From an uncultured Granulicella sp. (GTDB taxonomy: Bacteria > Acidobacteriota > Terriglobia > Terriglobales > Acidobacteriaceae): a DNA stretch of 56,142 bases. Of this stretch, positions 29,761 through 47,707 are shown piece by piece. The stretch covers positions 1 through 56,142 of the forward strand of contig CALMVK010000148.1 of the NCBI GenBank assembly GCA_937873145.1, written 5' to 3'. Position numbers and translations under genes: made by a program. Every line of letters begins with the position of its first letter. The first letter of the stretch is position 1. The notes beneath the pieces were generated by a model, which made no database searches, had not been told where the DNA came from, and worked only from the letters and a program-made list of their open reading frames with translations.

Positions 29761-30348
29761 ATGTCTTCCATTGCAACCAAGACTGGCGACACCGGACTAA
29801 CGGGCCTGGTTGGCGGAATCCGGCTTTCAAAAGCGGATCTACGTGTCGAATCGTACGGCACGGTCGATGAACTTGGAGCCTCGCTCGGCTTCGCTCGTAG
29901 CCTGTGCTCGCATAGTGATGTCAAAGCCTGGACGGAAGAGATTCAGCGTACGCTGTTTCGCGTGGGGGCTGCCTTGTCGACACCACCTGAGGCACGGCGT
30001 ACCGATCCCTTTCTGAAGAACGAGGACGTTGAGCGTCTGACGGAGCTCGTCGATCAGATCGAATCTACCGAAGGCATTCTTTCTGACTGGTCGCTTCCCG
30101 GAGCCAACACCGAGTCGGCTGCCTACGAGGTGGCGCGCACCATCTGTCGCCGCGCGGAGCGACTCGCCGTACGCCTCGCCGAGAGCTCCCCCAGTGAAGC
30201 GTTCGTGCCTGGTGAGGTGCTTGCCTATCTGAATCGGCTATCAGATCTCATTTGGCTATTCGGTCGTTTGATTGAGCTGCGCGCCGGCGTGGATGCGCGG
30301 CTGCGCGACGAGACCAAGGCTGGACCCGACTTCTCGCGCGCCTGGTAG
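29761..30348 (+). CDS. PduO-type cob(I)alamin adenosyltransferase
   Basis: 195 residues. The ATP-binding N-terminus TKTGDTGLTGLVGGIRLSKA, then SYGTVDELGASLGFAR, and the signature WSLPGANTESAAYEVARTIC with RRAERLAVRL match the PduO family that makes adenosylcobalamin from ATP and cob(I)alamin. The C-terminal segment EVLAYLNRLSDLIWLFGRLI is also typical. A strong AGGAG lies before ATG. It is separate from the sigma pair (about 150 bases) and lies 101 bases before the first glycan-cassette gene, so could be cotranscribed. In this window it is the cobalamin-metabolism counterpart of two B12 riboswitches and a B12-binding radical SAM enzyme. Confidence 0.9.
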   Translation: MSSIATKTGDTGLTGLVGGIRLSKADLRVESYGTVDELGASLGFARSLCSHSDVKAWTEEIQRTLFRVGAALSTPPEARRTDPFLKNEDVERLTELVDQIESTEGILSDWSLPGANTESAAYEVARTICRRAERLAVRLAESSPSEAFVPGEVLAYLNRLSDLIWLFGRLIELRAGVDARLRDETKAGPDFSRAW

Positions 30349-30449: not shown

Positions 30450-31553
30450 GTGCACTTTGCAATCTTCGGCCTAACTGTATCCTCCTCCTGGGGAAACGGT
30501 CACGCCACCCTTTGGCGTTCTCTGATCAAGGCGATGCTCAACCGGGGGCACCAGGTTACGTTTTTTGAGCGGGACGTTCCTTACTATTCTAGCGAGCGCG
30601 ATCTAAACGCGTTGCCCGCAGGCGGTACGTTGTGCCTTTACCCGGATCTGGCCTCGATCGAACCAGAAGTTCGCCGCACTCTCGACCACGCGGACGTTGC
30701 AATCTCTACCAGCTTCTGCCCGGATGGCCCAACCGCGTGCGATTGGATTCTGAACAGCGATGCACGCATCAAGGCGTTCTACGATCTCGACACCCCGGTA
30801 ACCCTCGATGCATTAGAGACTGGGGGCAACGTTGCCTATCTTCCCTCGGAAGGCCTTGGGGCGTTCGATCTAGTCCTAAGCTACACCGGCGGGCTTGCGC
30901 TCGAACAACTGCAGAGCCGGCTTGGAGCAAAACGGGTCGCGCCTCTTTACGGCTCGGTCGATCCTGAAAGTCATCATCCTGTCGCTCCTGTTGAGGAGTA
31001 TCGCGCGGACCTCTCCTATCTTGGAACCTACGCCGCGGATCGACAGGAACGCCTGGCCAGGCTGTTTCTCGAACCTGCAGCGCGCCTGCCTCATGCGGAT
31101 TTTCTCATCGGCGGCGCGCAGTACCCGGAGAGCTTTCCCTGGGCCGCAAACATCGCCTTCAAGCGGCATGTTCCGCCTACTCGACATCCAGCGTTCTTTT
31201 GCTCCAGCCGCGCCACGCTCAACATTACCCGCGCGGCCATGGCCCGCTACGGATTCTGTCCTTCTGGACGTCTCTTTGAAGCCGCTGCCTGTGGGGTTCC
31301 GCTGCTAAGCGACACGTGGGAGGGTTTGGATCGCTTCTTCGAGCCCGGACGCGAGATCCTTCCGGTACGCACGGCAGATGAAGTCACCCAGGCGCTTTCG
31401 CTTTCTGATCGTGAGTTGCAAGACATCGCCGCCGCCGCACGCGCACGAACGTTGGCTGAGCACACCGGCGAGTGCCGCGTGCTTGAGCTTGAGCGTCTCT
31501 GCGCAGCCGTTCTCCAAGCTGTTCCTGGCGCTGCGCTCGAGGTGGTCGCCTGA
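30450..31553 (+). CDS. CgeB-like glycosyltransferase (cassette GT 1)
   Basis: 367 residues. The N-terminal Rossmann half is FAIFGLTVSSSWGNGHATLW with GHQVTFFERDVPYYSSERDL. The C-terminal donor-binding half has CPSGRLFEAAACGVPLLSDT and FEPGREILPVRTADEV, as in CgeB/Glyco_trans_1_2 proteins. The GTG at 30450 is preferred over 30432 because GGAG sits six bases before it and its N-terminus aligns with the paralogue at 35869 (MKIVVFGLTITSSWGNGHAT). No membrane segment. The stop overlaps the CTG start of the next gene. Donor and acceptor are unknown. Confidence 0.82.
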   Translation: MHFAIFGLTVSSSWGNGHATLWRSLIKAMLNRGHQVTFFERDVPYYSSERDLNALPAGGTLCLYPDLASIEPEVRRTLDHADVAISTSFCPDGPTACDWILNSDARIKAFYDLDTPVTLDALETGGNVAYLPSEGLGAFDLVLSYTGGLALEQLQSRLGAKRVAPLYGSVDPESHHPVAPVEEYRADLSYLGTYAADRQERLARLFLEPAARLPHADFLIGGAQYPESFPWAANIAFKRHVPPTRHPAFFCSSRATLNITRAAMARYGFCPSGRLFEAAACGVPLLSDTWEGLDRFFEPGREILPVRTADEVTQALSLSDRELQDIAAAARARTLAEHTGECRVLELERLCAAVLQAVPGAALEVVA

Positions 31554-32305
31554 GTATCTGGGGCATCATTCCGGCCGCTGGCGCGGGAAGCCGCATCCAG
31601 CCACTCGCCTTCTCTAAAGAACTTCTTCCGGTTGGCAGCCGCATGGAAGACGGTCAGGAGCGTCCGCGTGCCGTCAGTGAGTATCTTGTCGAACGCATGA
31701 TTCGCGGCGGGGCCGACCGTCTTTGCTTCGTCGTCTCCCCTGGCAAAACCGATATCCTCGAGTACTATGGCTCGCGGGTCTGGGGCGCGGAGATCGCCTA
31801 CGTTGTACAGCAGCGCGCTGGCGGTCTTTGCGATGCCCTCTTCCGCGCTCTGCCCTTGCTTCATGCCGAGGACTCCGTGCTGATTGGCCTGCCGGATACC
31901 GTCTGGTCGCCCGTGGACGGCTACGCCAAACTTCCCAACGATGTCCTGTCGTTTCTGCTCTTTCCTGTCGAGCATCCGGAGTTCTTCGACGCGGTTCTCA
32001 CCGATCCGGATGGAACGGTACAAGAGATCCAGGTGAAGCAGAAAGACGCGCAATCTAGCTGGATTTGGGGAGGCATTCGTATGCCCGCGCAAGTATTCCA
32101 GGCGCTGTATCACCTGTGGTGTCGGCCAGAGCGCAAGGATGAATATCTGGGCACGCTGGTCAACGCCTGGATCAGCGAAGGGGGTAAAGCCGTCGGGATA
32201 CAGGCCGGCCAGGCGTATGTGGATGTCGGCACGCTGCACGGCTACCGGGCCGCGCTGCGTTGGCTCGAAGCGCATCCAGAACAGGAGAGTGAAGCATGGT
32301 TGTAA
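31550..32305 (+). CDS. Sugar nucleotidyltransferase with a CTG start
   Basis: 251 residues of the nucleotidyltransferase (NDP-sugar pyrophosphorylase) fold. The nucleotide-binding signature GIIPAAGAGSRIQPLAFSKE with LLPVG is encoded at 31562-31630, upstream of the first ATG in frame (31643), so that ATG cannot be the true start. The only suitable codon is CTG at 31550. It overlaps the preceding TGA as CTGA, mimicking the ATGA/GTGA couplings of the rest of the cassette. RVLVER-type and product-binding segments (QQRAGGLCDALFRALPLLHA, LIGLPDTVW, VDVGTLHGY) are present. Likely makes an NDP-sugar for the cassette glycosyltransferases. Confidence 0.78.
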   Translation: MSIWGIIPAAGAGSRIQPLAFSKELLPVGSRMEDGQERPRAVSEYLVERMIRGGADRLCFVVSPGKTDILEYYGSRVWGAEIAYVVQQRAGGLCDALFRALPLLHAEDSVLIGLPDTVWSPVDGYAKLPNDVLSFLLFPVEHPEFFDAVLTDPDGTVQEIQVKQKDAQSSWIWGGIRMPAQVFQALYHLWCRPERKDEYLGTLVNAWISEGGKAVGIQAGQAYVDVGTLHGYRAALRWLEAHPEQESEAWL

Positions 32306-33078
32306 GTCCGTCCGCAGAAAAACGTAGCGAGGTTGAGCGCCGCATCGAGGAGCTTGGCCCGTGGTTTCATAATATGGAGCTTGGCGGCGTTCGCACCGCA
32401 CCAGAACACTTTTTGGGCGACTATCCCGCGGTCAAGTACGCCCACTTCCGCACTTCTCTGCCGGCGGATATGTCCGGCCTTACCGTGCTCGATATCGGCT
32501 GCAACGGCGGCTTTTACTCGCTGGAGATGAAGCGGCGTGGTGCCTCCCGTGTTCTCGGCATCGATACCAATGACCACTATCTTCAGCAGGCTCGCTTTGC
32601 CGCTGAGATCTCCGGCCTTGAGATCGACTTCGAACGCATGCCGGTATGGGACATCGGTGCGCTCGGGGAGCGATTTGACCTGGTCATCTTTATGGGCGTG
32701 CTTTATCACTTGCGCCATCCTCTGCTGGCGCTCGATCTCATCCACGAGCACGTCGCGAAGGACCTGCTGCTCTTCCAAAGCATGCAACGTGGAAGCCGCG
32801 AGATCGCCGCGATTGAAGAGGACTACGACTTCAATGGACGCGCGCCGTTCGACGAGCCAGGCTACCCGAAGATGCACTTCATCGAACATCGATACTCCCA
32901 CGATGAGACCAACTGGTGGGTGCCGAATCGCGCGTGTACCGAGGCCATGTTGCGCTCGAGCGGCTTCCTGATCGAATCGCAACCGGAGGATGAAGTGTAT
33001 GTCTGCCGTTGGAGTTCTCTGGTAACGCCGCCCGATGGCCCCCATTGCGTCTACCCGAAAGCAGGCTCGACACGGTGA
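32296..33078 (+). CDS. SAM-dependent methyltransferase of the glycan cassette
   Basis: 260 residues with a class I methyltransferase fold: SAM motif I is LTVLDIGCNGGFYSLEMKRR, followed by VLGIDTNDHYLQQARFAA and FDLVIFMGVLYHLRHPL. It resembles the tRNA-cmo5U-like/DUF1698 group. From memory there is a dedicated family (Rta_06860 type) found in glycan cassettes; not checked. It starts with a good site (AGGAGAGTGAAGC before ATG) 10 bases before the end of the nucleotidyltransferase gene. The stop overlaps the next GTG (GTGA). Probable role: O-methylation of a sugar or intermediate. Confidence 0.82.
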   Translation: MVVSPSAEKRSEVERRIEELGPWFHNMELGGVRTAPEHFLGDYPAVKYAHFRTSLPADMSGLTVLDIGCNGGFYSLEMKRRGASRVLGIDTNDHYLQQARFAAEISGLEIDFERMPVWDIGALGERFDLVIFMGVLYHLRHPLLALDLIHEHVAKDLLLFQSMQRGSREIAAIEEDYDFNGRAPFDEPGYPKMHFIEHRYSHDETNWWVPNRACTEAMLRSSGFLIESQPEDEVYVCRWSSLVTPPDGPHCVYPKAGSTR

Positions 33079-34097
33079 TTCCCGAATCCGAAGCCTGGCT
33101 GCAACGTGCCGAGGCACTGCTGACCGAACGCAAACTGACCGACGCAGCGGAAGCCTTCCACCGCGCACAAGCGATAGGCGCCTCGCACGATCGATGCGAT
33201 GCAGGACGCTGGATGCTTGCCATGTTCAGTGGCGACTTTGACTCCGCGTGGTCGATCAGTGACGCTTTACGCGCGCGAAACGCACCCGACCCGCACCGGT
33301 TCTGGAACGGCCAGGACATCCGCGACGCACGCTTGATCGTTCGCTGCCTGCATGGCCTTGGAGATACGGTACAGATGCTGCGCTATGCGGCGCTCTTGAA
33401 GGCACAAGCAGCCTCCGTCGTCTTTGAAGTGCCTCCGCGCCTGCTCGATCTAGCGACCTGCTTTCAGGGCGTGCAGGAGGCGGTTACGTGGGGGGAACGA
33501 GCTCCCTATCGTCTTCCATCGTGGGAGGTGCAGTTGGAAGTGATGGAGCTGCCCTACCTGTTTCGCACGACACCCAAGGACCTGCCTGTCGCTACCCGCT
33601 ACCTGAACCTTCCGGAAAAGGAGGTGCGCGAGACAGCAGAAGCAATGGGCACCTCCGATTCGCTCAGGATTGGGTTGGTGTGGGCCGCAGGAGAGTGGAA
33701 CCCGGAACGCTCGATCCCACTCGCGGCGCTCAACCCTCTGCTGCAGATGGAGGGGCTGGAGTTCTGGAATCTGCAAGGTGGACCCGCCGCTGCGGAAGCC
33801 GGACCCACATCCATGCGAAACGCAGGAGAGCTCTGTGGCGATGGCCTGTTGGCGCTTGCGGCAACGATCGCCAACCTCGACCTGGTCATCACCGTAGACA
33901 CGCTCGCGGCTCATCTCGCCGGTGCCTTGGGCACACCTGCCTGGGTGCTGCTGCAGCAGGCCGCGGACTGGCGCTGGATGCATGCGCGCGACGACAGCCC
34001 CTGGTACCCACAGACGCGGCTCTTCCGCCAGTGCCGCCAAAGCGAGTGGAAGCCCGTCGTCGACGCCGTCCTCCTCGCGCTCAAAGGAGAACTATGA
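33075..34097 (+). CDS. GT9/TPR-like glycosyltransferase-type protein
   Basis: 340 residues. The N-terminal about 60 residues form a TPR-like helical pair (ESEAWLQRAEALLTERKLTD). The rest resembles heptosyltransferase-like (GT9) domains that are often fused to TPRs: LRIGLVWAAGEWNPERSIPL, then ATIANLDLVITVDTLAAHLA and WVLLQQAADWRWMHARDDSP-WYPQTRLFRQ. Start is GTG 33075 (GTGA overlap with the methyltransferase stop); a longer frame lies inside that gene. Catalytic activity is uncertain, as many TPR-fused GT9-like proteins are uncharacterised. Confidence 0.75.
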   Translation: MIPESEAWLQRAEALLTERKLTDAAEAFHRAQAIGASHDRCDAGRWMLAMFSGDFDSAWSISDALRARNAPDPHRFWNGQDIRDARLIVRCLHGLGDTVQMLRYAALLKAQAASVVFEVPPRLLDLATCFQGVQEAVTWGERAPYRLPSWEVQLEVMELPYLFRTTPKDLPVATRYLNLPEKEVRETAEAMGTSDSLRIGLVWAAGEWNPERSIPLAALNPLLQMEGLEFWNLQGGPAAAEAGPTSMRNAGELCGDGLLALAATIANLDLVITVDTLAAHLAGALGTPAWVLLQQAADWRWMHARDDSPWYPQTRLFRQCRQSEWKPVVDAVLLALKGEL

Positions 34098-34813
34098 GCA
34101 CGCAAAACGATATGGAAACGCCTACGCGACGCTGGGATGAGTACCAGGCTTACCTCTTCGATATCGATGGAACCCTGATGCATTGCACCGACGCAGTCCA
34201 CTACTTCGCTTTCTGCGAAGCCTTGACCGCGGTCGCTGGACGGCCATTGAACCTGGACGGCGTGGTCGCACACGGAAATGTAGATGAAGGCATCCTGCGA
34301 GATGCCTTTACGCTCGCCGGCGTTCCTGAAGAGGTGTGGCGTCCGCGCCTGGCGGAGATGCGCAGTTTTATGTGCAGCTTCGTACAGCAACGCAGCGCGG
34401 ATCTATGCATCCACATTCTGCCTCAGGTGCGCGAGGTACTGGCACACCTGCGCAGCCGTGGCGCGATCCTTGGCGTTGCTACCGGGAATCTTGCCGGCAT
34501 CGGAGAAACCAAGCTGGCACAGTGCGGGCTGCTTCCCTGCTTCGACTTCGGAGGCTATAGCGATACGTGCGAGTACCGTCGCGACGTCTTTCGAGGAGCT
34601 CTTGAGAAAGCACATGCATTCGCTGGAAATCATGCATCCGTGTGCGTTGTGGGCGATACTCCGGAAGATATCCGCGCTGCCCATGACAACCAGTTACCAA
34701 TCATTGCGACAGCCACGGGCATCTATCCCTATGAACAACTGCTCGCGGAAGGCCCGGAGTGGTGTGTTCACTCTCTCACGGAGTTGATGGAGAGCCTTTC
34801 AGCCAAGGCTTGA
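34094..34813 (+). CDS. HAD-superfamily phosphatase
   Basis: 239 residues. Motif I YLFDIDGTLMHCTDAVHYFA (nucleophile and acid Asp), motif II GVATGNLAGIGETKL (Thr), conserved Arg/Lys near YRRDVFRGALEKAH, motif IV VVGDTPEDIRAAHDNQ. The capped HAD architecture suggests a sugar-phosphate or phosphoglycolate-like phosphatase. AAAGGAGAACT before ATG 34094; ATGA overlap with the preceding gene. It is the last gene of the forward half of the cassette and its last 15 bases overlap the convergent glycosyltransferase. It may remove phosphate from a sugar intermediate. Confidence 0.83.
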   Translation: MSTQNDMETPTRRWDEYQAYLFDIDGTLMHCTDAVHYFAFCEALTAVAGRPLNLDGVVAHGNVDEGILRDAFTLAGVPEEVWRPRLAEMRSFMCSFVQQRSADLCIHILPQVREVLAHLRSRGAILGVATGNLAGIGETKLAQCGLLPCFDFGGYSDTCEYRRDVFRGALEKAHAFAGNHASVCVVGDTPEDIRAAHDNQLPIIATATGIYPYEQLLAEGPEWCVHSLTELMESLSAKA

Positions 34814-35869
34814 GACGATCTCCTCAAACTGTAGCGCGCGATGCTCCGCGCTGTGAGCGGCAAGAATCCGCGCACGCGCACGTTGGCCCATGCGCTCACG
34901 CTCTTCGTCTCCCATCTCCTTCAACAGATGTGCAACCTCGGTCGCATTCTTGGGCAGCAGGATCTCTTTGCCGGGAGTAAGAAACTCCGCAAGCCCTGGC
35001 CAATTGTCGGACAGGATCGTCGCGCCACACGCCGAGGCCTCAAACAAGCGCACGGAAGGCGAGTATCCAGCAGCCACCATATCGTCCCGCGTAATGTTCA
35101 ACGTAAAGCGGCTGGAGCAATAAAATGCAGGATGATCTCGCGGCGGCACATGCACCATCCGGCGCACGTTGCTTTGCCATTGAATGGCATCCTCCGGATA
35201 CTGCGGCCCAGCAACCATAAAAGTCTGCTGTGGAGCCAGCTCCGCCGCAGCATCAAGCAGACGCATCAGCTTAGGCTGGCGATCTGCCGCGTAGGTTCCC
35301 AGGTAGCTCAAATCGCAGGCGAACTCAGCCCGCGCCGCCACTGGTCGATAGAGCTCCGGATCCACTGAGCAATAAAACGCAATCGCCCTCTGTGCCCCGA
35401 AGACCTCTTCTAGCTCCCGCAACGCTGGGCCTCCCGTGAAGCTTAGGTAGGCTGCATAGGAAGGGATTAGCGCAGCCGTAAGGTATGCGGTGCCGCCGTG
35501 ATTCCGAAGCTGCTGCAACGTAATCGGCGTGTCAATGTCGTAGAACAAAACGGGACAGCGCACAGTCTTCAGCAAAGCAGTGGTTGCGGCAATTGCATCC
35601 GGGAAGTAGGAACCGACGACGATTGCGTCCGCGTCGAAGCATAGGCCAAGCAGCTCCGCCGAGTCCCGCTCCCACTCCTCGTAAAGAGAGACCGTGCAAA
35701 ACTTAGGTTCGGGAAGATCGCGATTGCTGCGATACCACTCCACATCCTTCTCGATAAATTGAATCGAGTGCCCGCGCCGCGCCAAAGCTTTCAGCAGCGA
35801 ACGGTACGTGGTCGCGTGCCCATTGCCCCAGGACGAAGTAATCGTCAGACCAAACACGACAATCTTCAT
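34799..35869 (-). CDS. CgeB-like glycosyltransferase (cassette GT 2)
   Basis: 356 residues, paralogous to the gene at 30450: MKIVVFGLTITSSWGNGHAT, RSNRDLPEPKFCTVSLYEEW, FTGGPALRELEEVFGAQRAI, DLSYLGTYAADRQPKLMRLL and a donor site LFEASACGATILSDNWPGLA. Soluble, no signal. It is the last gene of the reverse half; its start overlaps the upstream gene as ATGA and its end overlaps the HAD gene by 15 bases on the other strand. Confidence 0.85.
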   Translation of the reverse strand: MKIVVFGLTITSSWGNGHATTYRSLLKALARRGHSIQFIEKDVEWYRSNRDLPEPKFCTVSLYEEWERDSAELLGLCFDADAIVVGSYFPDAIAATTALLKTVRCPVLFYDIDTPITLQQLRNHGGTAYLTAALIPSYAAYLSFTGGPALRELEEVFGAQRAIAFYCSVDPELYRPVAARAEFACDLSYLGTYAADRQPKLMRLLDAAAELAPQQTFMVAGPQYPEDAIQWQSNVRRMVHVPPRDHPAFYCSSRFTLNITRDDMVAAGYSPSVRLFEASACGATILSDNWPGLAEFLTPGKEILLPKNATEVAHLLKEMGDEERERMGQRARARILAAHSAEHRALQFEEIVSSLG

Positions 35870-36963
35870 GCGAGCATGGAGCCCTGTGCAGTGTTACGCG
35901 CTGCAAGGCAGAACCGGAAGGCTGCGTCTGCCTGTACGGCACGCTGGGCATAGGTATGATCTCGCAACGCGCGCGCATGAAAGGCCGCGCCAATCCGGCG
36001 GCGTGCCGCGTCGTCGTGCTGCCTAAGTGCGTGCACGACATCTTGCGCGTTCTTTACAACAAGGATTTCGCTTCCGGGTTCGAAGCAGTCATCAATACCC
36101 GGCCAATCGTCGCAGAGCAAGCACGTGCCAGCCCCAGCCACCTCAAAGACGCGGGTCGGCGGGGAAAAGCCGGAAGATGCCATCGAAGCCCGATTGATAT
36201 TCATCACCATGTCGGCCGAGCAGTTCACGCGATTGTGCTCAGACGTTGGCACATGGCCCACATACCGCACGTTCGCAGGCAGCGGTTTATCCGCCCAGCC
36301 CTCGCCGCCGAGTAGAAACTGGCTCTCAGGAGCAAGCTCCGCTGCGTGCAAGAAAAGTTCTTCGACGCGTGCCTCACGATCGGGAAGGCGATTGCCAAGA
36401 AAGGCAATATCGCAGGCTAGTGCAGGATCGGCAGCCACCGGATAGTGCGTCTCCGGATCGAGCCCGTTGTACATGCTGAAGTAAGCGCGCGCGCCAAACT
36501 TCAGAAAGTGCTCGCGGCAGTACGGCCCGCCGCCGTAAGTCAGCACCGCATCGTAGTGCGGCATGTAGGTTCGGAACGCATCCTCCACATCGGCGTACAT
36601 CCGCGCCAATGTTGCAGGTGCGTCCACATCCCAATACGTAATGGCACAGCTTTGCTGCAACTCCAGCACACGGCGTTCAAGCGTCTCATCGTCTACTCCG
36701 ATGCCGCTATGCTTCACCACTACGTCGGCATTGGCAGCCATCTGCAGCATTGCATCCAGGCCCACACTGGGCTCGTAAACCAGCGAGTGCACATATGAGA
36801 AGTCATCGGAGTCCCGATGCTGTTGCCGTCCATACGCATCCGGCTCGGCAAAGGTAATTTCGTGGCCCATCCGCGCCAGGTACTTGTAACAACCACGGTA
36901 ATACGTCGCAGCGCCGTTCCAGTACGAAGAGACAATGCTCGATCCGAAAGCGAAGATCTTCAC
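35866..36963 (-). CDS. CgeB-like glycosyltransferase (cassette GT 3)
   Basis: 365 residues of the same group: MKIFAFGSSIVSSYWNGAAT, GHEITFAEPDAYGRQQHRDS, MYNGLDPETHYPVAADPALA, CDIAFLGNRLPDREARVEEL, RVFEVAGAGTCLLCDDWPGI and FEPGSEILVVKNAQDVVHAL. Start is GTG 36963 (GTGA overlap with the preceding gene). It is diverged from GT 1 and GT 2, suggesting a different donor or acceptor. Confidence 0.83.
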   Translation of the reverse strand: MKIFAFGSSIVSSYWNGAATYYRGCYKYLARMGHEITFAEPDAYGRQQHRDSDDFSYVHSLVYEPSVGLDAMLQMAANADVVVKHSGIGVDDETLERRVLELQQSCAITYWDVDAPATLARMYADVEDAFRTYMPHYDAVLTYGGGPYCREHFLKFGARAYFSMYNGLDPETHYPVAADPALACDIAFLGNRLPDREARVEELFLHAAELAPESQFLLGGEGWADKPLPANVRYVGHVPTSEHNRVNCSADMVMNINRASMASSGFSPPTRVFEVAGAGTCLLCDDWPGIDDCFEPGSEILVVKNAQDVVHALRQHDDAARRRIGAAFHARALRDHTYAQRAVQADAAFRFCLAARNTAQGSMLA

Positions 36964-38099
36964 GCGAGCAGCTCCTGACAGATCTGAGTAAGCTCCTGAG
37001 CACGGTGATCGCAGGTGTGACGAGCCAGAATCGTTTCAAGCCCACGCGCCGCCTGATCCTCAGCCTGGTCAGGATTCCGAAGCAGGTGCGTTATGGCCGT
37101 TTGCATCTGTTCACCGTTGGTTACAAATAGAAAATCTCCTGCACGGAAGAGCTGCTCCGTATCGCTCCAGGGTGCAGAGATCAACGGGATTCCACTTGCC
37201 AAAGCTTCAAACACGCGAATCGTTGGAATGCCAGGCATCGCTGAACTGTATTGCCGGCGAGGAATGTGTACCGTCAGCCTGGAGGATCGATATACGCAGG
37301 GCGCCTGCAGATTGGGAAGATAGCCGCCGTATCGCACACCCGCCTGCGCCAACGCTGCCAGACCCTCTGGAGGGTAGCGCACACCGTAGATCGCAAACCG
37401 ATGGATGCCTGCAAGGGCGGTCGCTGGCCGCAAGAAAAACTCCTCAATCTCCGCCGAGCGTTCCTCATCGCCCCAATTGCCGATCCACACCACATCCTCC
37501 GTACGTTCCGCCGTCTGCGGATGAAAGACCGAGACATCCGCAGCCTCATGCAAGGTCCACACGCGCTCCAGGCCGAAGCGCTCACGATACAAGTTGCGCA
37601 GCACCTCGCCAAACGCCAAGATGCCGTCGAATCGTTCAAGACCAAAAAGCGCTATCTGCTCAGGAGAGGAAGAGGCCCGATGATGCGTGTCATGGAAGAG
37701 CAGCCGGAAGCCCAACTCATCCCGCAGTTGGAGAAGTAATTGTGCCAGCACAGGCGGATGCCACTCATGCAAGATTACAAAGTCTACATCGTGCAACTTC
37801 TCTCGCAAACATGCGCAGAGCAAGTCGTCTGCTTGCGCCGAAGCATAGGTGTCGATGTGCAAGTCCGGATAGATGCGGGCAAACTCGTCAAGCGCGCTTT
37901 GGCCGGCGGCTTCCTGCCGTAAATTATCAATCGACCACTCGGATGCTGGCTCCAACAGCTTTACTTCATGTCCCATAGCTCCCATCGCACGCATTAGACC
38001 ACGCAGAAAATGTGCGTTGCCATTGTTCCAGTCAGACCGAAACGAGTGCGCAAAGTACGCTAGATGAAGTTTGGGCTGGTTGCTCAAATCAGTGCGCAT
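36960..38099 (-). CDS. CgeB-like glycosyltransferase (cassette GT 4)
   Basis: 379 residues beginning MRTDLSNQPKLHLAYFAHSF with RSDWNNGNAHFLRGLMRAMG, the same SxWNxGNA/H entry motif as the other CgeB-like members, and a donor half PTIRVFEALASGIPLISAPW. ATG 38099 gives an 11-base overlap with the upstream GT gene; the longer frame is inside that gene. An internal region (HEWHPPVLAQLLLQLRDELG, FHDTHHRASSSPEQIALFGL) is closer to ordinary GT4 proteins than its paralogues. Confidence 0.82.
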   Translation of the reverse strand: MRTDLSNQPKLHLAYFAHSFRSDWNNGNAHFLRGLMRAMGAMGHEVKLLEPASEWSIDNLRQEAAGQSALDEFARIYPDLHIDTYASAQADDLLCACLREKLHDVDFVILHEWHPPVLAQLLLQLRDELGFRLLFHDTHHRASSSPEQIALFGLERFDGILAFGEVLRNLYRERFGLERVWTLHEAADVSVFHPQTAERTEDVVWIGNWGDEERSAEIEEFFLRPATALAGIHRFAIYGVRYPPEGLAALAQAGVRYGGYLPNLQAPCVYRSSRLTVHIPRRQYSSAMPGIPTIRVFEALASGIPLISAPWSDTEQLFRAGDFLFVTNGEQMQTAITHLLRNPDQAEDQAARGLETILARHTCDHRAQELTQICQELLA

Positions 38100-39198
38100 G
38101 CGCTGCCCACTCCATCTCGGCCGGCTGCGCACTGGTCAGCAGATCACGATAGAGGCTCTCGTACTGATCGGCCATGTGCGTGGCCGTAAGCTGACGCGCT
38201 CGCACTGCGGATCGCTCTTGCAATTCATGGATCGCGTCCGTAGAAAGCGTCTCAAGCAGGTGGCTGAGCGACGCAGCATTGCAGAAGTAAAGCGCGGCGT
38301 CTCCCCAAATCTCACGAAATGACGGCAGATCGTACAGCAGCAAAGCACAGCCGCACTGCGCTGCCTCCAGCGGAGCAAGGCCGAAAGGCTCATAGCGCGA
38401 CGGCGCAAGATAAAGACTGCTTTCGCAGAAGAGTTTGAGGACTTCATCCTGCGTCAGCGAACCAAGAAAAGTGAGATTCCCACTACCGGCTTCCGCTGCA
38501 TCTCCGAAGCGCTGCTCACCGGCAATCAGGATGGGAAACGGCGCTTGAACTTCTGTAAGCAACGCGAAGTTCTTCGCTTCGTCCCAGAAGCGGCCCACCG
38601 AAACTGCTTGCAAACGCTTCGATTCCACGCCGCTTCGAGAGACAGCTCTTCCGTTCAGGATGACCTGTGGCGCACGTCGCAAGTAGTAAAGCTTGCACAG
38701 CGCATCGCTCATCCACTGTGTGGGTGCAACCACAACGGTAGCCCGCTCCAGTCCGCGTTCCACAAGCGATCGATAGCATGTAAGCCACGCACTAGCTTCC
38801 AGGCCATGCGGACGGCACGCTGCGGCCCAGCTCAACACATCACTATGAGCCGTAACCACCACCGGAAGACCAAGCGGCACAGCACCAAAACAAAACTGAC
38901 TGCTGTGCAGGATCTCTACCTGAAAGCTTTCCGCCAAAGCCAGCAGAGAATCGATGCCTTCACTGTAAGCGTGCTGATTATCTTCCATCCACTCCAAAGG
39001 AGCCACTGACGCTTCATAGCGAAAACGCTCACCAAAGCGACTTGAGAGACGCATACAGGTCTCGGCTTGCGAGACAGAAGGCGCACGGCCCAAGCTAAGC
39101 AACGCCACAGTATGGCCGCGCATTAGTAGCTCGGCAGACAGTTCCTGCGTAAACGTCCACACACCCCCAACCGTGTCCGTGGTCAGCAGGATGCGCAT
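38089..39198 (-). CDS. GT4-family glycosyltransferase (cassette GT 5)
   Basis: 369 residues, GT-B fold. Acceptor half MRILLTTDTVGGVWTFTQEL; donor half with VSVGRFWDEAKNFALL and the retaining GT4 signature SRYEPFGLAPLEAAQCGCAL (E-x7-E). This is a classic glycogen-synthase/GT4 type, not the CgeB type of its neighbours. Start overlaps the radical SAM stop by 16 bases. No membrane segment. Confidence 0.87.
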   Translation of the reverse strand: MRILLTTDTVGGVWTFTQELSAELLMRGHTVALLSLGRAPSVSQAETCMRLSSRFGERFRYEASVAPLEWMEDNQHAYSEGIDSLLALAESFQVEILHSSQFCFGAVPLGLPVVVTAHSDVLSWAAACRPHGLEASAWLTCYRSLVERGLERATVVVAPTQWMSDALCKLYYLRRAPQVILNGRAVSRSGVESKRLQAVSVGRFWDEAKNFALLTEVQAPFPILIAGEQRFGDAAEAGSGNLTFLGSLTQDEVLKLFCESSLYLAPSRYEPFGLAPLEAAQCGCALLLYDLPSFREIWGDAALYFCNAASLSHLLETLSTDAIHELQERSAVRARQLTATHMADQYESLYRDLLTSAQPAEMEWAAHAH

Positions 39199-40517
39199 GC
39201 CAGCTTCTCCTGCTGTCCACCTTCGAGCTCCTGCAAAGAAAGCGGCTGCTGATCCTGAATATCGCTGTAACCTTTATCCGCAAAAAGCTGAAGATAAAAG
39301 CTGTGCGCGCGCTCCCAGGCGGCCTCATCCGGCTGCACGCCAAAAGTAGTGACATATTCCGGACTGCCGGGAAATGGGAACATGGGTACCGGCTCGCTCA
39401 CCCACACACCCTTGGCTTTCAGGCCCGCCTGCCACGCCGCAACCAGTGCCGGATCGTCTTCCGGGGTCTTGATCAGATTTGCCTGCACCCACGGAATGCG
39501 CTGCTTGGCGTACACCAGCAGTTCTGTAATCCGATCCGTGCTGATACGGCAGTGCTTGTTCATCGCATCGCGGCCTTCATCGGTGATCGATTCCACCCCA
39601 CACTCAAAACTCACGCAGTGGGCGCGCGCCAGCAGATCGAGCGATGCCTCATCCCATAGGTCGATGCGCGTTTGAAAGCCAATGGACACAGGCCGCTGTG
39701 CAAGCGCCTCCAGCAACTCCCGCACCTGCTTGCCGACGCCAAAGATCTCGTCGATAAAGTAGATGTAGTCCACGCCTCGCGCCAGCAGCGCGTCGATCTC
39801 ACTCAGCACGGCAGAAAGCTGGCGTTCACGATATTTGTTCCGAAAAAGTGTCTTATTACAGAAGGTGCACGCGTACGGACATCCCCGCGCAAACTCAACT
39901 TCTGCCCCATGACGCAGATGATCCGCGCCGTTGCCCGGAAAGATGTGGTGCAAATGCGTATGCCGTTCCACGGGATAGTCCGAGTAGTCCAACGGACCAA
40001 GCGCGCGCATGTCGGTTGCGCCAAGCCCGGGCGTCGTGTGGACCACACCCTTCGCATCTCGCCAACAGCAGCCGGCAATCAACTCCCACGGCAATGTTGC
40101 GAGTTGCGGCAAGGTCTGGTCAGGCTCGCCTCGTAGAACGATATCCGCGCCGGTTTTCTCAAGTGTCGACAGCGGCGTTACCGAGCCGTGCGGCCCGATG
40201 ACAACGCGCTGCGAACGGCGGTTCAGAGCTGCAATCCATTGACGAGGCACACGTAGTTCCGGTTGTGGGCAGCGCCAGAAGAGATACGAAGGGGCCGTCG
40301 GCAAGACTAGGAAGTCTTCGCCAAATGCCTCTAGCCGCGCATGCACCTGCTCCGGCGTTAGATTTTCCATCCAGGCATCGACCAGCAGAACCTCTTGTCC
40401 GGCGGCGCGCAACATCTCGCGAGCGGAGAGCATCTCTAATGGAAAATGCGGCTCGGTACACCCAAAGTAAGTGGAACCTTCAAAGCTCCAGAACGGGTTC
40501 ACCAGAGCGAACTTCAC
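39183..40517 (-). CDS. B12-binding-type radical SAM enzyme of the glycan cassette
   Basis: 444 residues. Residues 1-150 have the alpha/beta Rossmann pattern of a cobalamin-binding domain (MKFALVNPFWSFEGSTYFGC, EVLLVDAWMENLTPEQVHAR, RVVIGPHGSVTPLSTLEKTG) without an obvious DxHxxG motif. Residues from 205 are the radical SAM core, with CX3CX2C in ARGCPYACTFCNKTLFRNKY. A C-terminal region extends past 380. GTG start 40517 overlaps the upstream epimerase as GTGA. From memory there is a family model for this exact type in a twelve-gene oligosaccharide cassette (called rhizo-twelve); I could not verify. Likely a methylation, epimerisation or dehydration of a sugar. Confidence 0.85.
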   Translation of the reverse strand: MKFALVNPFWSFEGSTYFGCTEPHFPLEMLSAREMLRAAGQEVLLVDAWMENLTPEQVHARLEAFGEDFLVLPTAPSYLFWRCPQPELRVPRQWIAALNRRSQRVVIGPHGSVTPLSTLEKTGADIVLRGEPDQTLPQLATLPWELIAGCCWRDAKGVVHTTPGLGATDMRALGPLDYSDYPVERHTHLHHIFPGNGADHLRHGAEVEFARGCPYACTFCNKTLFRNKYRERQLSAVLSEIDALLARGVDYIYFIDEIFGVGKQVRELLEALAQRPVSIGFQTRIDLWDEASLDLLARAHCVSFECGVESITDEGRDAMNKHCRISTDRITELLVYAKQRIPWVQANLIKTPEDDPALVAAWQAGLKAKGVWVSEPVPMFPFPGSPEYVTTFGVQPDEAAWERAHSFYLQLFADKGYSDIQDQQPLSLQELEGGQQEKLACASC

Positions 40518-41626
40518 GCAACCTCCTGACCGATGAAGTCAGCACGCGCACACTCCTCTGAGGCAAGCGCCTCGCGCTGCGCACTGATAGAGGCGCGGTT
40601 CTCCCGCCAGAAGCGATGGATCGCCTTCAGTGTCTCGCGGCATGAGTGACGTGGCCGCCAGCCTGTCTCAGCTTCAAGTTTTGTGGTGTTTGAAACATAG
40701 AGTGGCTGATCTCCCGGGCGAACGGCACTGTAGCGCAGGATCGGCGCAATGCCTGTCTCGTCCGCGATCGCCTCAAGCATGGCAAGGACCGAGACCGAAC
40801 GCTCCGGTCCGCCCCCGACGTTGTAGATCTGGCCCGCTGTACGATCCGCCGATCGATGCGCAGCCTCCATGGCGTCGACTAGATCATGAACATGCAAAAT
40901 ATCGCGTACCTGAAAACCATTGCCGTAGATCGTAATCGGCTTGCGCTCCAGAACCGAGTAGACAAAGTGAGCCAGCCATCCCTGATCTTCAGTTCCGAAC
41001 TGCCGCGGACCTGCGATGCAGGACATGCGGAACACCGTCGTATGCAGGCCATAGATACGCGCATAGTCGCGCACATACTGGTCTGCTGCGCCCTTCGAGC
41101 AGCCGTATGGCGAGTGGAAGTCGAGCGGCTCCGCTTCCGTCACACCTGCGAAACCGGCATACTGCGCCCGGTAGCGCGTGCCCTCCACATGCACCGGAAT
41201 CCTTTCAAGCGAACCGTAGACCTTATTCGTCGAAGTAAACAAAACATAAGGCTGGCGTCCGGAGCGGCGTGCCGCCTCCAATACATTCACTGTACCTGCC
41301 GCATTGATCTCAAAGTCATGCCGCGGCTCTTCAATCGACGTCGTCACCGCAACCTGCGCAGCCAGATGATAGATCTCGGTTGCGTCCTTCGCGGCTTTAT
41401 ACACTGCGGAGGCATTGCGGATGTCGCCACGCACAAACTCTAGTTGATTGCTATTCACCAGCCCAGAGAGCCAGGTTAAATTTTGCTCCACACCCCGTCG
41501 CGAAAGATCATCAAAGATACGAACCCGTGCTCCTGCATCCTGCAACAGACGCTCCGCCAGGTTCGATCCGACGAAGCCCGCGCCTCCGGTAATCAGCACC
41601 GTACGTTGCGCACCGGGCCCCTTCAT
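40514..41626 (-). CDS. CDP-paratose 2-epimerase-like SDR
   Basis: 370-residue extended SDR. NAD site TVLITGGAGFVGSNLAERLL; catalytic YxxxK in DFHSPYGCSKGAADQYVRDY; and YVLFTSTNKVYGSL, the segment characteristic of CDP-paratose/tyvelose epimerases. It should epimerise a nucleotide-activated hexose. The start at 41626 gives an ATGA overlap with the preceding epimerase; an upstream extension is inside that gene. Exact sugar is not determined. Confidence 0.82.
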   Translation of the reverse strand: MKGPGAQRTVLITGGAGFVGSNLAERLLQDAGARVRIFDDLSRRGVEQNLTWLSGLVNSNQLEFVRGDIRNASAVYKAAKDATEIYHLAAQVAVTTSIEEPRHDFEINAAGTVNVLEAARRSGRQPYVLFTSTNKVYGSLERIPVHVEGTRYRAQYAGFAGVTEAEPLDFHSPYGCSKGAADQYVRDYARIYGLHTTVFRMSCIAGPRQFGTEDQGWLAHFVYSVLERKPITIYGNGFQVRDILHVHDLVDAMEAAHRSADRTAGQIYNVGGGPERSVSVLAMLEAIADETGIAPILRYSAVRPGDQPLYVSNTTKLEAETGWRPRHSCRETLKAIHRFWRENRASISAQREALASEECARADFIGQEVA

Positions 41627-42762
41627 GCTGTCAACCCGTACGTGCTCAGCTCTTGAAGCATCGTTTCTGCTTTGTCCTCGGCCTGCTGCCCGGCCAGCCA
41701 CGCAGCAAGTTCACGAAAGCCTTGCTCATGGGTCACCTGCGGTGCATATCCAAGCAGGCGGCCGGCACAGGTTAGATCCGCGAAGCAGTGACGAATATCT
41801 CCCGCGCGATACTTGTGCGTGATCACGGGCGCGAGCTCCTGTTTGCCGAGCGCTGCCGCTAAAATCTCGGCCACGCGACGGATTGTGATGGGCACACCGC
41901 CGCCTATGTTGATGACCCGATCATTCGATTCGGGCCGCTCCATTGCCAAGAGATTGGCACGCACAATGTCATGAACATGCACAAAGTCCCGCATCTGTTC
42001 TCCATCCTCAAACACCAGGGGAGCTTGATCGTTGATTAACCGAGCAGCAAAGATTGCGGCTACCCCGGTATACGGATTCGAGAGCGCTTGCCTGGTCCCG
42101 TAGATATTGAAAAAACGTAGCGCAGTAACCGGGATGCCATAGGTTCGACCAAAGATCAGGCAAAGCTCTTCCTGGTCGCGCTTTGAGAGTGCGTAGACCG
42201 AGTTGATCTCCGACGGCTTGGTCTCGCTTGTCGCCTGCGGACGAAGCACTCCACCGCAAGCCGTGCAGTGCAACTCCCATTGCGATTGGCGAAGCTGCGC
42301 TACCGGACGCACAGACGGAAAAGCACTTTGTCCGCAGTCGGAACACAGATAAGCGCCTTCACCATAGATCGACATTGAGGAGGCCACAATTAATTTTTGC
42401 GGAAACGATTTGTTGTCCAACATGGCTTGCAGCAGCTCTGCCGTGCCTTGTGTGTTCACGCTCATGTAGCGGCTGATCTCGTACATCGACTGGCCCACAC
42501 CGACTGTGGCTGCAAAGTGAAAGACGACATCGACCCCCGCCAGCACCTCTCGCAGACGGTTTGGATCGCGCACGTCGCCCTGCACCAACTCGACCTGGGG
42601 AGAAAGATAGTCGGGTATCCCGCCCTGATGAACCTGCGGCGTTAAATCGTCCAGCACGCGCACCGCATGGCCCGCGGCCAGCAGTCCATCCGCTAGGTGC
42701 GAGCCGACAAAGCCTGCTCCGCCGGTAATCAGTATCTGCTTCGGTCTTGCGGATGTAGTCAT
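41623..42762 (-). CDS. NDP-sugar 4-epimerase-like SDR with zinc-ribbon insertion
   Basis: 379-residue extended SDR. QILITGGAGFVGSHLADGLL (NAD), catalytic YALSKRDQEELCLIF, and SNPYTGVAAIFAARLINDQA. Between strand 4 and the YxxxK helix is an insertion with two cysteine pairs (CSDCG and CTACG, separated by about 24 residues), suggesting a structural zinc site. This layout resembles dTDP-L-rhamnose 4-epimerases of the WbiB type. Start overlaps the GH gene stop as ATGA. Probable role: preparing a deoxy-sugar donor for the cassette. Confidence 0.8.
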   Translation of the reverse strand: MTTSARPKQILITGGAGFVGSHLADGLLAAGHAVRVLDDLTPQVHQGGIPDYLSPQVELVQGDVRDPNRLREVLAGVDVVFHFAATVGVGQSMYEISRYMSVNTQGTAELLQAMLDNKSFPQKLIVASSMSIYGEGAYLCSDCGQSAFPSVRPVAQLRQSQWELHCTACGGVLRPQATSETKPSEINSVYALSKRDQEELCLIFGRTYGIPVTALRFFNIYGTRQALSNPYTGVAAIFAARLINDQAPLVFEDGEQMRDFVHVHDIVRANLLAMERPESNDRVINIGGGVPITIRRVAEILAAALGKQELAPVITHKYRAGDIRHCFADLTCAGRLLGYAPQVTHEQGFRELAAWLAGQQAEDKAETMLQELSTYGLTA

Positions 42763-43706
42763 CGGGTGGGAAGCGTCTCCTCTGGTGCGGTCTCGAAAAC
42801 AGCGCTACGACTTTTTTCTACTGGAGGAGCATAGCGATCTACGGCCCATGCGGCAAAATCGGCAAATTGCTGCGGATCGCGTGGCGGGCTGGTGTGATGG
42901 TCTTCAAGGCCCAGGTGCGCCGGGGTGAAGCAAAGCGTCAAGGCAACACGAAAGGGAGCGAGTGCATGCATCTGCCGATCAAACCACTCCGTCGCCTGCG
43001 GACGGAACGAGTCTGCCCAGCTCAAGCCCGTCCGCAGATACTCCACGTTATGCTCCCTCATCCATACGATTGCATCCTCCAGCCGAGGGTCTTCAAAGTG
43101 AAACCACTGGCAAAAGCCAACGCTGCCATCCGTAGGAAAGTTTCGTACCGCAAGCTTAGGAGACCCATCCTCTTTAATCAATCCAAGATAATAATGCCGA
43201 TAATAGGAGGATCCCTCCGCTTCTTTGTGACGCGTCTCCGCCGGCCAGCTAGGAGGAAGATCGAACAGGCTATACCAGTGAATGCGCTTTGTGCGGCCTT
43301 GCAACAACTCGAGCGTGCGTTTGAAGCCGAACTCCTGGACCTCTTCCGCGCCAAAGCTGGACACACCTACTTCGGTGACCCACACCGGCAGGCCGCTCAC
43401 TTCGGCGGCTTCAGCAAGCCGCTCCGGCCATTCGGTGAGTTGCCAGTGGTTCCAATCCAGCGGAAAACCGTGTACGCCCACCGCGTCGACGTGCTGCATC
43501 ACCCCGTAACTGGCCATGAGCCGCAGAAAGTCGCAGTCGCAGGAAGACACCCCACCAAGCACAATGGGAAGATTTGGATTGACTCTTCGAATGGCCACAG
43601 AGGCAAGCTTCACCATCTCGGCAAAGCGCTCCCAGCCGGGGTCGAGTTTGAAGTTCCAGTGCGAAAGGTTATTCGGTTCATTCCACAAAACGACCGCTTC
43701 CACCAT
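42759..43706 (-). CDS. GH39-like glycoside hydrolase with apparently permuted barrel order
   Basis: 315 residues. The acid/base motif VVLWNEPNNLSHW is at residues 5-17 (E10), the nucleophile motif VWVTEVGVSSFGAEE at 108-122 (E112). Residues 200-295 carry what normally precedes the acid/base in this family: FHFEDPRLEDAIVWMREHNV, EYLRTGLSWADSFRP, RVALTLCFTPAHLG and FADFAAWAVDRYAPP. The barrel halves therefore appear swapped (circular permutation), unless the true N-terminus is missing. ATG 43706 has AGAGGA about ten bases upstream; the frame further upstream (to 43934) is not protein-like. No signal peptide, so cytoplasmic. First gene of the reverse half; ATGA overlap with the next epimerase. 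Confidence 0.72.
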   Translation of the reverse strand: MVEAVVLWNEPNNLSHWNFKLDPGWERFAEMVKLASVAIRRVNPNLPIVLGGVSSCDCDFLRLMASYGVMQHVDAVGVHGFPLDWNHWQLTEWPERLAEAAEVSGLPVWVTEVGVSSFGAEEVQEFGFKRTLELLQGRTKRIHWYSLFDLPPSWPAETRHKEAEGSSYYRHYYLGLIKEDGSPKLAVRNFPTDGSVGFCQWFHFEDPRLEDAIVWMREHNVEYLRTGLSWADSFRPQATEWFDRQMHALAPFRVALTLCFTPAHLGLEDHHTSPPRDPQQFADFAAWAVDRYAPPVEKSRSAVFETAPEETLPTR

Positions 43707-44479: not shown

Positions 44480-45001
44480 CTAAAACGCCAGCCGCATCAC
44501 CGGATCCGTAAACGGAGTTTGCCCTAAAAAGAACGTTCGCGTGCCGATCTGCTCAAAACCATGCCTGCGATAAAACGCCATGGCGCGATGGTTCTCCGGA
44601 TGCAGCCCCAGCAGTAGGTGCGGCGCGCCCGCCTCTCGGGCATACGCAATGGCCGCCTCCATCAGACGCTTCCCTGCCCCGCCTCCATGAAAGCGGGAAA
44701 GCACGTAGATGCGCCGAAGCTCCAGATCGCCAGGTTGCACCAACTCCGGAGGAAACTCCGGCGGCGTCAGCAGCGCGTATCCAATCGGAGCTGCGCCAGG
44801 CTCGACTTCCGCCAGCCACGCACGCGACTCCGGCCGACGAAGCTCTGCTTCGTAGGCTTCCCGCACATGCAGCTTGGCGCAATGCGCGACTAAGGACTGG
44901 CCTGGAAGAAAGCCGGCATACGCATCGAGCAGCGTCGCTGACCCAATCACGGCCAGCGTAAACGCATCCGCGACCGTGCACATCCTCAAACGAACGTCCA
45001 T
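44480..45001 (-). CDS. GNAT-family N-acetyltransferase
   Basis: 173 residues: N-terminal helix pair, then the acetyl-CoA site in LSRFHGGGAGKRLMEAAIAY (motif A R/Q-x-x-G-x-G/A) and HLLLGLHPENHRAMAFYRRH, GFEQIGTRTFFLGQTPF (motif B). Acetylates an unknown amine. Convergent with the DUF3455 gene and divergent from agmatine deiminase. Confidence 0.85.
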   Translation of the reverse strand: MDVRLRMCTVADAFTLAVIGSATLLDAYAGFLPGQSLVAHCAKLHVREAYEAELRRPESRAWLAEVEPGAAPIGYALLTPPEFPPELVQPGDLELRRIYVLSRFHGGGAGKRLMEAAIAYAREAGAPHLLLGLHPENHRAMAFYRRHGFEQIGTRTFFLGQTPFTDPVMRLAF

Positions 45002-45058
45002 CTTCCAATCCTATCGGACCGCAAGCATCGGCTTGCCATGTGCGCGAAAATAGCTCAT

Positions 45059-47264: not shown

Positions 47265-47341
47265 CCTCCATGAGAAGCTCCAGCCGGCGTGGACGCTGCC
47301 CGCGCCACCCGAGGCCACTTCCATCCCTCTACAATCAAACC

Positions 47342-47707
47342 ATGTCCGCCCCCGATTCCCGACCCTGGCCGCCACCGCCAGATCTGCCTTCCATCCAGGA
47401 GCTCGTCCGCACCGCCGACCCCGAAGGCCACCTCGCCGAAGGCGCACCCACCGACGAGTACGAGCCCGAAGAACAGGCCATCCTCGACTCCCTGCACGGC
47501 CTTAGCACCGCAGAGATCGTCGTCGCCAATCTCCTTCCCGCGCTCGAGCGCATCTGGCAGCAAGCCTTTGCGCTCTCGCCCGACGCTCTCGCCAGCCGCC
47601 GGCCCAAACTCCTCGCCCTTGCCAAGGAGATCGAGCGCTTCTTCGGTCCGGAGTCCCAGCCCCGCACGCGCACCCAAATACTTGAAGACAACGCCAGCGC
47701 TTCATGA
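47342..47707 (+). CDS. Conserved hypothetical small acidic protein, coupled to tadA
   Basis: 121 residues, acidic and proline-rich at the N-terminus (PDSRPWPPPPDLPSIQELVR), then helical (AEIVVANLLPALERIWQQAF, RRPKLLALAKEIERFFG). No recognised domain or membrane segment. The stop overlaps the tadA start as ATGA, so it is translationally coupled with tadA; a link to tRNA deamination is possible but untested. Confidence 0.6.
   Translation: MSAPDSRPWPPPPDLPSIQELVRTADPEGHLAEGAPTDEYEPEEQAILDSLHGLSTAEIVVANLLPALERIWQQAFALSPDALASRRPKLLALAKEIERFFGPESQPRTRTQILEDNASAS

Follow-up and report, generated by a model that had tools for sequence, protein, structure and literature searches.

Bacterial O-antigen and exopolysaccharide loci of the Wzx/Wzy or ABC type combine sugar-nucleotide enzymes and several glycosyltransferases (GTs) with functions such as an initiating transferase, a flippase, a polymerase or an exporter. 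PslG, a protein of the GH39 type, belongs to an exopolysaccharide system. A second point of reference is a gene cassette for which NCBI already has two models, TIGR04290 (a methyltransferase) and TIGR04295 (a radical SAM protein), neither of which names a function. Here we describe a member of this cassette family on contig CALMVK010000148.1 (positions 1-56,142; this whole 56,142-nucleotide stretch is hereafter the window) of an uncultured Granulicella sp., a soil bacterium of the Acidobacteriota (assembly GCA_937873145.1). It consists of 13 open reading frames (ORFs) at positions 30450-43706, five forward followed by eight reverse, the two runs being convergent (Table 1). The cassette resembles O-antigen and exopolysaccharide loci in its sugar-nucleotide enzymes and several GTs, but differs in that no initiating transferase, flippase, polymerase or exporter was found inside it. 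It is widespread across phyla yet rare within them, and we consider the chances evenly balanced that it is a conserved, patchy pathway assembling a small oligosaccharide in the cytosol.

The window's methyltransferase and radical SAM protein both pass the curated cut-offs of the cassette's own models. The other 11 proteins match broad families only, or specific models below cut-off; NCBIfam was scanned with all 13 proteins and Pfam with 10 of them. TIGR04295 was found above cut-off in 5/297 sampled genomes of the phylum (the window's genome included), in 1/16 other genomes of the window's family, in none of the 14 other sampled genomes of its genus, and in 14/385 Alphaproteobacteria (the class of a Paracoccaceae bin). 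Nine plasmid records matched at E 1e-30, from Azospirillum, Bradyrhizobium, Tistrella and a Geminicoccaceae bacterium, and these loci share with the window the epimerases, the radical SAM protein, the GT4, the CgeB-like GTs and a beta-xylosidase-like gene. Moreover, a single pattern scan across genome contigs yielded 58 loci, mostly acidobacterial, together with Myxococcota, Nitrospirota and Thermodesulfobacteriota. A core of radical SAM protein, epimerase, GT4, three CgeB-like GTs and GH39-like protein is collinear in Acidobacteriota, Alphaproteobacteria, Myxococcota, Nitrospirota and Thermodesulfobacteriota. Recurrence of these genes in a constant order across many genomes makes the cassette more than a chance arrangement. 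Compared with other TIGR04295/TIGR04290 cassettes, that of the window adds GT9-like and HAD genes and the two convergent runs, and is without inositol-3-phosphate synthase (MIPS), histidine phosphatase (His-phosphatase), phosphopentomutase and UDP-xylose synthase (UXS). Combined literature searches found no publication on the cassette, nor any using the terms 'rhizo-twelve', TIGR04295, TIGR04290 or Rta_06860. The first of these, a name that the first-pass annotation had given for a similar cassette in family models for rhizobia, is absent from the NCBIfam descriptions shown and from the literature searched.

The comparison set comprised 78 loci after three duplicates were dropped: 59 full loci, 18 with the radical SAM part only, and one (L049, 3.4 kb) that was too short. 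A full locus counted as deep if at least 8.5 kb was available on both sides, which held for 38. All 38 contain the radical SAM protein, SDRA, CgeB2, CgeB3, CgeB4 and the GH39-like protein, and most also the GT4 (37/38), the methyltransferase (35/38) and SDRB (33/38). Of the 56 full loci with a complete set of radical SAM, GT4, CgeB2, CgeB3 and CgeB4, 55 have these genes collinear in that order. Accessory genes are more variable, with CgeB1 and the nucleotidyltransferase each in 18 deep loci, the GT9-like gene in 17, UXS in 12, HAD in 11, and MIPS and His-phosphatase in 9 each. Across the 59 full loci the accessories are not independent: the nucleotidyltransferase accompanies CgeB1 in every locus that has it except L070, His-phosphatase is present in all 10 loci with MIPS, and no locus combines HAD with His-phosphatase. 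The protein distances calculated for SDRA, SDRB, GT4 and CgeB2-4 correlate with those of the radical SAM protein at r 0.81-0.90, those of the methyltransferase at 0.51 and of the GH39-like protein at 0.53, and 0/500 permutations were as high; genome kinship by itself could explain part of these correlations. Two close relatives of the window's cassette (L043 and L044) come from bins labelled Verrucomicrobia and Rhodanobacteraceae, yet fall inside the acidobacterial branch beside the window. They may be misbinned contigs or cases of transfer, and the data fit both.

The first-pass annotation had held that the cassette is kept as a unit, and that scattering of its genes in close relatives would speak against this. 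Unity proved only partial. Fifteen of the 18 reduced loci were taken as truly reduced (L072, L098 and L100 were excluded as short contigs or contig-end cuts), and in these 15 acidobacterial genomes, mostly more distant relatives, the cassette is split into two loci; the 14 sampled congeners have no TIGR04295 match above cut-off at all. All 15 genomes that carry the radical SAM piece alone at the first locus possess a CgeB3 relative elsewhere (49-62% identity). The second places were fetched for 10 of the 15, and these hold the row GT4-CgeB2-CgeB3-CgeB4 in 10/10, the GH39-like gene in 9, the methyltransferase in 5 and SDRA in 4. Therefore, the pathway is retained even though the gene block is broken. 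SDRB adjoins the radical SAM gene in 46 of the 48 full loci with SDRB and, where detected in reduced loci (13/15), lies beside it in all 13, and SDRB and the radical SAM protein therefore form a unit of their own. In one split locus (L134:4533-7843) a GT4 gene and a glycogen-debranching-type (GDE_N_bis) gene follow the cassette piece.

The best solved relatives of SDRB are the CDP-tyvelose 2-epimerases 9rl0 and 1orr, the next solved protein scoring 129 bits. Published accounts describe Thr124, Asn125, Lys126, Tyr164, Lys168 and Gln205 of CDP-tyvelose 2-epimerase as catalytic or sugar-binding, Tyr203 as closing over the cytosine and Trp210 as a CDP-binding residue (PMC13098431, PMC7851689). On alignment SDRB keeps all six residues of the first group so described. 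However, in 66/66 SDRB frames Tyr203 is replaced by Glu and Trp210 by His, the two positions that those accounts assign to the nucleotide. The natural reading is that SDRB would be a C2 epimerase acting on a different nucleotide or sugar. For SDRA, which carries a Cys-rich insert, the closest matches are GalE-like epimerases, both in the PDB and, below cut-offs, in NCBIfam.

The AlphaFold model of the radical SAM protein (pLDDT 92) aligns over near its full length with TsrM, MgmA, OxsB, AprD4, CysS and TokK in Foldseek, and has the common two-domain fold of TsrM, MgmA, OxsB and AprD4 at TM 0.59-0.68 by query. The fold thus supports a B12-type Rossmann domain joined to a radical SAM domain, although by sequence the former reaches only 23 bits (PF02310, gathering 32.1). 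CxxxCxxC is present in 76/76 frames and DxHxxG in 13/76. Among solved proteins AprD4 of apramycin is closest in sequence; the weak relatives, far below cut-off, include the hopanoid enzymes HpnJ and HpnR. PDB titles give AprD4 as a diol dehydratase and TsrM and MgmA as methylases. Methylases and a dehydratase having the same fold, it does not decide the reaction. The Cys tail (CASC) that ends the window's protein was considered as a special feature and rejected, as it is not conserved.

Relative to the form found fused to SDRB in other carriers of the cassette, the GH39-like protein is circularly permuted. Stand-alone proteins begin at the WNEPNN strand, and the part that comes first in ordinary members comes last. 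Eight frames fused to the SDRB N-terminus (seven distinct, L033 and L145 being the same record) have the ordinary order: in 8/8, residues 197-315 of the window's protein match ahead of residues 1-196 (32-36% identity; searched among these eight alone, the two parts reached E 1e-9 to 3e-13 and 7e-27 to 1e-35). Moreover, a profile of 43 stand-alone proteins matched PslG at E 1e-6 with the halves swapped, positions 198-293 aligning to PslG 25-130 (weakly, 6 bits) and 2-152 to 132-301 (23 bits). The AlphaFold model has eight barrel strands. The second catalytic-type Glu (E112) is invariant in 48/48 aligned sequences, as is the first (E10), the sequences having been selected by the WNEP motif that contains it, and both are retained in the eight fused frames. 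The protein is like PslG and GH39 in its TIM barrel, both catalytic-type Glu residues and the profile match, but unlike them in its swapped halves and in a conserved frame that starts at the WNEP strand. The GH39 models of Pfam and NCBIfam gave no match to it (E 0.01 in each case), and a PDB search with the unpermuted fused domain of L147 alone returned nothing convincing. Foldseek with the permuted model found no good match over the full length (TM by query at most 0.51 among the matches listed) but several GH10 xylanases over half the length; such a result is what permutation would give, yet it proves nothing alone. Fusion of the unpermuted form to SDRB ties the GH39-like domain to the epimerase step.

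Several cassettes are linked to genes for a sugar precursor. A UDP-glucose 6-dehydrogenase-type gene (Ugd) begins 1-4 bp past the end of the radical SAM gene in four reduced loci and lies upstream of the GH39-like gene in three full loci; at L046:5169-6580 the Ugd-type gene upstream of the GH39-like gene is present as two frames. UXS-like genes occur in 13/59 full cassettes. On another contig of the window's genome we found a dehydrogenase 60% identical to that of L061, adjoining a UXS-like match (50%). The linkage of Ugd and UXS points to a precursor derived from UDP-glucuronate, either UDP-glucuronate itself or UDP-xylose. In the Tistrella plasmid cassette, UXS and the TIGR04290 methyltransferase gene are separated by a gene for a type IB DNA topoisomerase (L033:20969-22045).

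As to the acceptor, MIPS joins the cassette in some alphaproteobacteria. Detected by PF01658, MIPS is present in 6/14 alphaproteobacterial cassette carriers versus 29/371 other genomes of the class (Fisher p = 6.5e-4, without correction for kinship); PF07994 at E 1e-20, tried first, failed to detect the cassette subtype, which scores 529 bits to TIGR03450, below its cut-off of 638. With 6/14 carriers, MIPS as a universal partner is ruled out. In Azospirillum the gene order is MIPS, phosphatase, TIGR04290 methyltransferase, GH39-like, which suggests free or methylated inositol as the acceptor there. Beside the beta-xylosidase gene of three Azospirillum plasmids lies a frame of 583-584 aa (584 aa at L035:7296-9050) without a Pfam match in the one that was scanned, and it may be an antisense frame.

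Our best reading is a cytosolic route to a small oligosaccharide, probably methylated, that is assembled from a rare sugar and in some lineages has inositol as its acceptor. What the analysis shows directly is which genes are present, how far they are conserved, their catalytic motifs and two predicted folds; from these we infer the reaction steps and the product. Ugd would oxidise UDP-glucose to UDP-glucuronate, which UXS could decarboxylate to UDP-xylose. SDRA and SDRB would invert centres on the nucleotide sugar, SDRB at C2, whilst the radical SAM protein, the usual neighbour of SDRB, would make a radical change (C-methylation or dehydration) on the same sugar or its product. GT4, CgeB2, CgeB3 and CgeB4 would each place one residue onto the acceptor and the TIGR04290 enzyme would carry out O-methylation; the permuted GH39-like protein may trim, transglycosylate or merely hold the chain. 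In some alphaproteobacteria MIPS and His-phosphatase may supply free myo-inositol as the acceptor. Acidobacteria would seemingly use another acceptor or step, with CgeB1, the nucleotidyltransferase, the GT9-like protein and HAD. Given the absence of export and polymerisation genes, we would expect a glycoside of defined structure that stays in the cell or is attached to the envelope, perhaps serving as a stress solute. Annotations in various plasmid records, which are uncontrolled, place Ku/LigD, Mn catalase, DUF1003, YsnF, cytochrome oxidases and treZ in the flanks, a weak hint of a stress-island setting.

A number of observations weigh against parts of this reading. SDRB went undetected in 5/38 deep loci. 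The window's cassette has neither Ugd nor UXS, and the UXS-like match elsewhere in its genome has one TAG within the matched stretch. MIPS is found in only 10/59 full loci, being absent from most cassettes, and that of the window's genome is of the other domain type (PF07994, 325 bits) and on another contig. A controlled Pfam tally of 146 flank proteins from nine genomes versus 133 proteins of the same genomes gave a faint signal for a stress setting (cytochrome c 5, DUF892 2). Lastly, in a ninth fused protein (L142:7859-9784) both catalytic Glu residues are lost, with IAAAP for WNEP and TGTG for TEAG. Judged by these residues its GH-like part would be a pseudo-hydrolase domain kept with the epimerase, and from the loss it follows that hydrolysis may not be the job of the GH39-like domain.

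A cassette that builds the repeating unit of a surface polysaccharide, with polymerase and exporter encoded elsewhere in the genome, might likewise contain multiple GTs, epimerases, a nucleotidyltransferase and a PslG-like protein. We regard this alternative as unlikely. No polyprenyl-phosphate initiating transferase, flippase, polymerase or ABC exporter was recognised among the 13 proteins in the scans described above, and their highest 19-residue hydropathy mean is 1.65, with no clear membrane segment. The same holds for the split locus L134, where frame-by-frame reading by eye revealed no initiating, flippase, polymerase or exporter gene. Moreover, ABC_tran is not among the 25 families listed (of 177) for the 146 flank proteins, and thus occurs at most twice there versus 9/133 in controls, a shortage that is suggestive only. 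The absence of these functions from the cassette argues that it is not of the O-antigen or exopolysaccharide kind. Together with the cassette's own family models and the neighbourhood shared across phyla, for which the first-pass annotation had asked, this upholds its reading of the region as a glycan cassette.

The lack of an exporter and the non-processive GT-B-type enzymes would equally suit a membrane-bound acceptor, the cassette then adding a fixed oligosaccharide from the cytosolic side to a membrane or surface acceptor, either a protein or a polar lipid such as a hopanoid; the distant radical SAM relatives HpnJ and HpnR point weakly the same way. No lipid-synthesis or acceptor-protein gene stands out among gene clusters found in at least three loci, however, and we find this alternative doubtful. 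A secreted bioactive oligosaccharide, such as an orthosomycin-like natural product, is in our view very improbable. EvdMO1, of the everninomicin pathway, is the closest solved relative of the methyltransferase, and the radical SAM protein is nearest AprD4 by sequence and OxsB and TsrM by fold, but the EvdMO1 similarity is modest (54 bits) and no resistance, polyketide or exporter gene is prominent in the shared clusters or the annotated plasmid loci beside the cassette, although some Azospirillum plasmids have MFS transporter genes at a distance of up to 15 kb. A bolder form of the cytosolic oligosaccharide reading, which we put forward as a long shot, is that the cassette's product represents a bacterial cyclitol oligosaccharide of a new class. 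This would be a short chain of radical SAM-modified, C2-inverted pentose or uronic residues on inositol or a related acceptor, serving as an intracellular desiccation or stress solute, with the permuted GH39-like protein working alongside the epimerase as a synthetic transglycosidase or substrate holder and not as a degrading hydrolase.

Table 1. Genes of the cassette in the window, with their best supporting matches.
Gene product	Position	Strand	Evidence
CgeB1, CgeB-like glycosyltransferase	30450..31553	+	PF13524 137 bits
Sugar-1-phosphate nucleotidyltransferase-like, CTG start	31550..32305	+	PF00483 32.5 bits, gathering 21.2
TIGR04290 family methyltransferase	32296..33078	+	378 bits, cut-off 300
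GT9-like, weak TPR match, accessory	33075..34097	+	PF01075 21.4 bits, just below gathering (22)
HAD-type phosphatase-like, accessory	34094..34813	+	NCBIfam HAD models, below cut-off
CgeB4, CgeB-like glycosyltransferase, core	34799..35869	-	PF13524 134 bits
CgeB3, CgeB-like glycosyltransferase, core	35866..36963	-	PF13524 133 bits
CgeB2, CgeB-like glycosyltransferase, core	36960..38099	-	PF13524 115 bits
GT4 family glycosyltransferase, core	38089..39198	-	PF13439 55 bits and PF00534 52 bits
Radical SAM protein, B12-binding-type N-terminal domain, core	39183..40517	-	TIGR04295 609 bits, cut-off 400
SDRB, CDP-tyvelose-2-epimerase-like SDR	40514..41626	-	270 and 269 bits to 9rl0 and 1orr
SDRA, extended SDR epimerase, Cys-rich insert, core	41623..42762	-	GalE-like matches in NCBIfam (below cut-offs) and PDB
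Circularly permuted GH39/PslG-like protein, core	42759..43706	-	Swapped-halves PslG profile match; AlphaFold pLDDT 89

All 13 frames of the convergent block are present on the strands and within the outer limits given by the first-pass annotation, which had also described an overlap at nearly every junction. With the starts chosen here all 12 junctions overlap, by 4, 10, 4, 4, 15, 4, 4, 11, 16, 4, 4 and 4 bp in order, including the convergent one, where HAD ends at 34813 and CgeB4 at 34799. That count depends on the CTG start of the nucleotidyltransferase at 31550; ATG, GTG and TTG are absent from its frame between 31490 and 31600 and the earliest ATG is at 31643. The closest solved proteins to the nucleotidyltransferase are RmlA-type thymidylyltransferases (best 36 bits). 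Two functional labels need adjusting. Three reverse CgeB-like GTs were correctly named, but the forward GT is CgeB-like as well, making four; and the gene called GT9/TPR is GT9-like only weakly, with TPR_16 below its gathering score. Matches of CgeB3 to de novo TIM barrels in the PDB are probably due to chance.

A PduO-type cobalamin adenosyltransferase gene (window 29761-30348) ends about 100 bp before the cassette. It and the ECF sigma genes upstream were considered as B12-related or regulatory partners and rejected, being beside the cassette in 0/38 deep relatives. On the other side lie an agmatine deiminase-like gene (45038-46123) and a PaiA-like acetyltransferase gene (44480-45001), adjoining on opposite strands and both below NCBIfam cut-offs, which possibly serve polyamine metabolism. 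Next to them a spore photoproduct lyase-like radical SAM gene (46131-47447) scores 289 bits to TIGR04070, below the cut-off of 400; endospore formation is not known in this host group.

In summary, NCBI's two function-less models had already marked this cassette, and what is new here is the circular permutation of the GH39-like protein and the nucleotide-pocket signature of SDRB. In at least five phyla the genes of a whole sugar pathway are held together, among them those for a radical SAM step, four to five GTs and an odd hydrolase fold. That one hydrolase domain exists both permuted and unpermuted within this pathway amounts to a natural experiment in protein topology. Moreover, with its split loci, linked precursor genes and epimerase signature, an unnamed cassette becomes a testable pathway.

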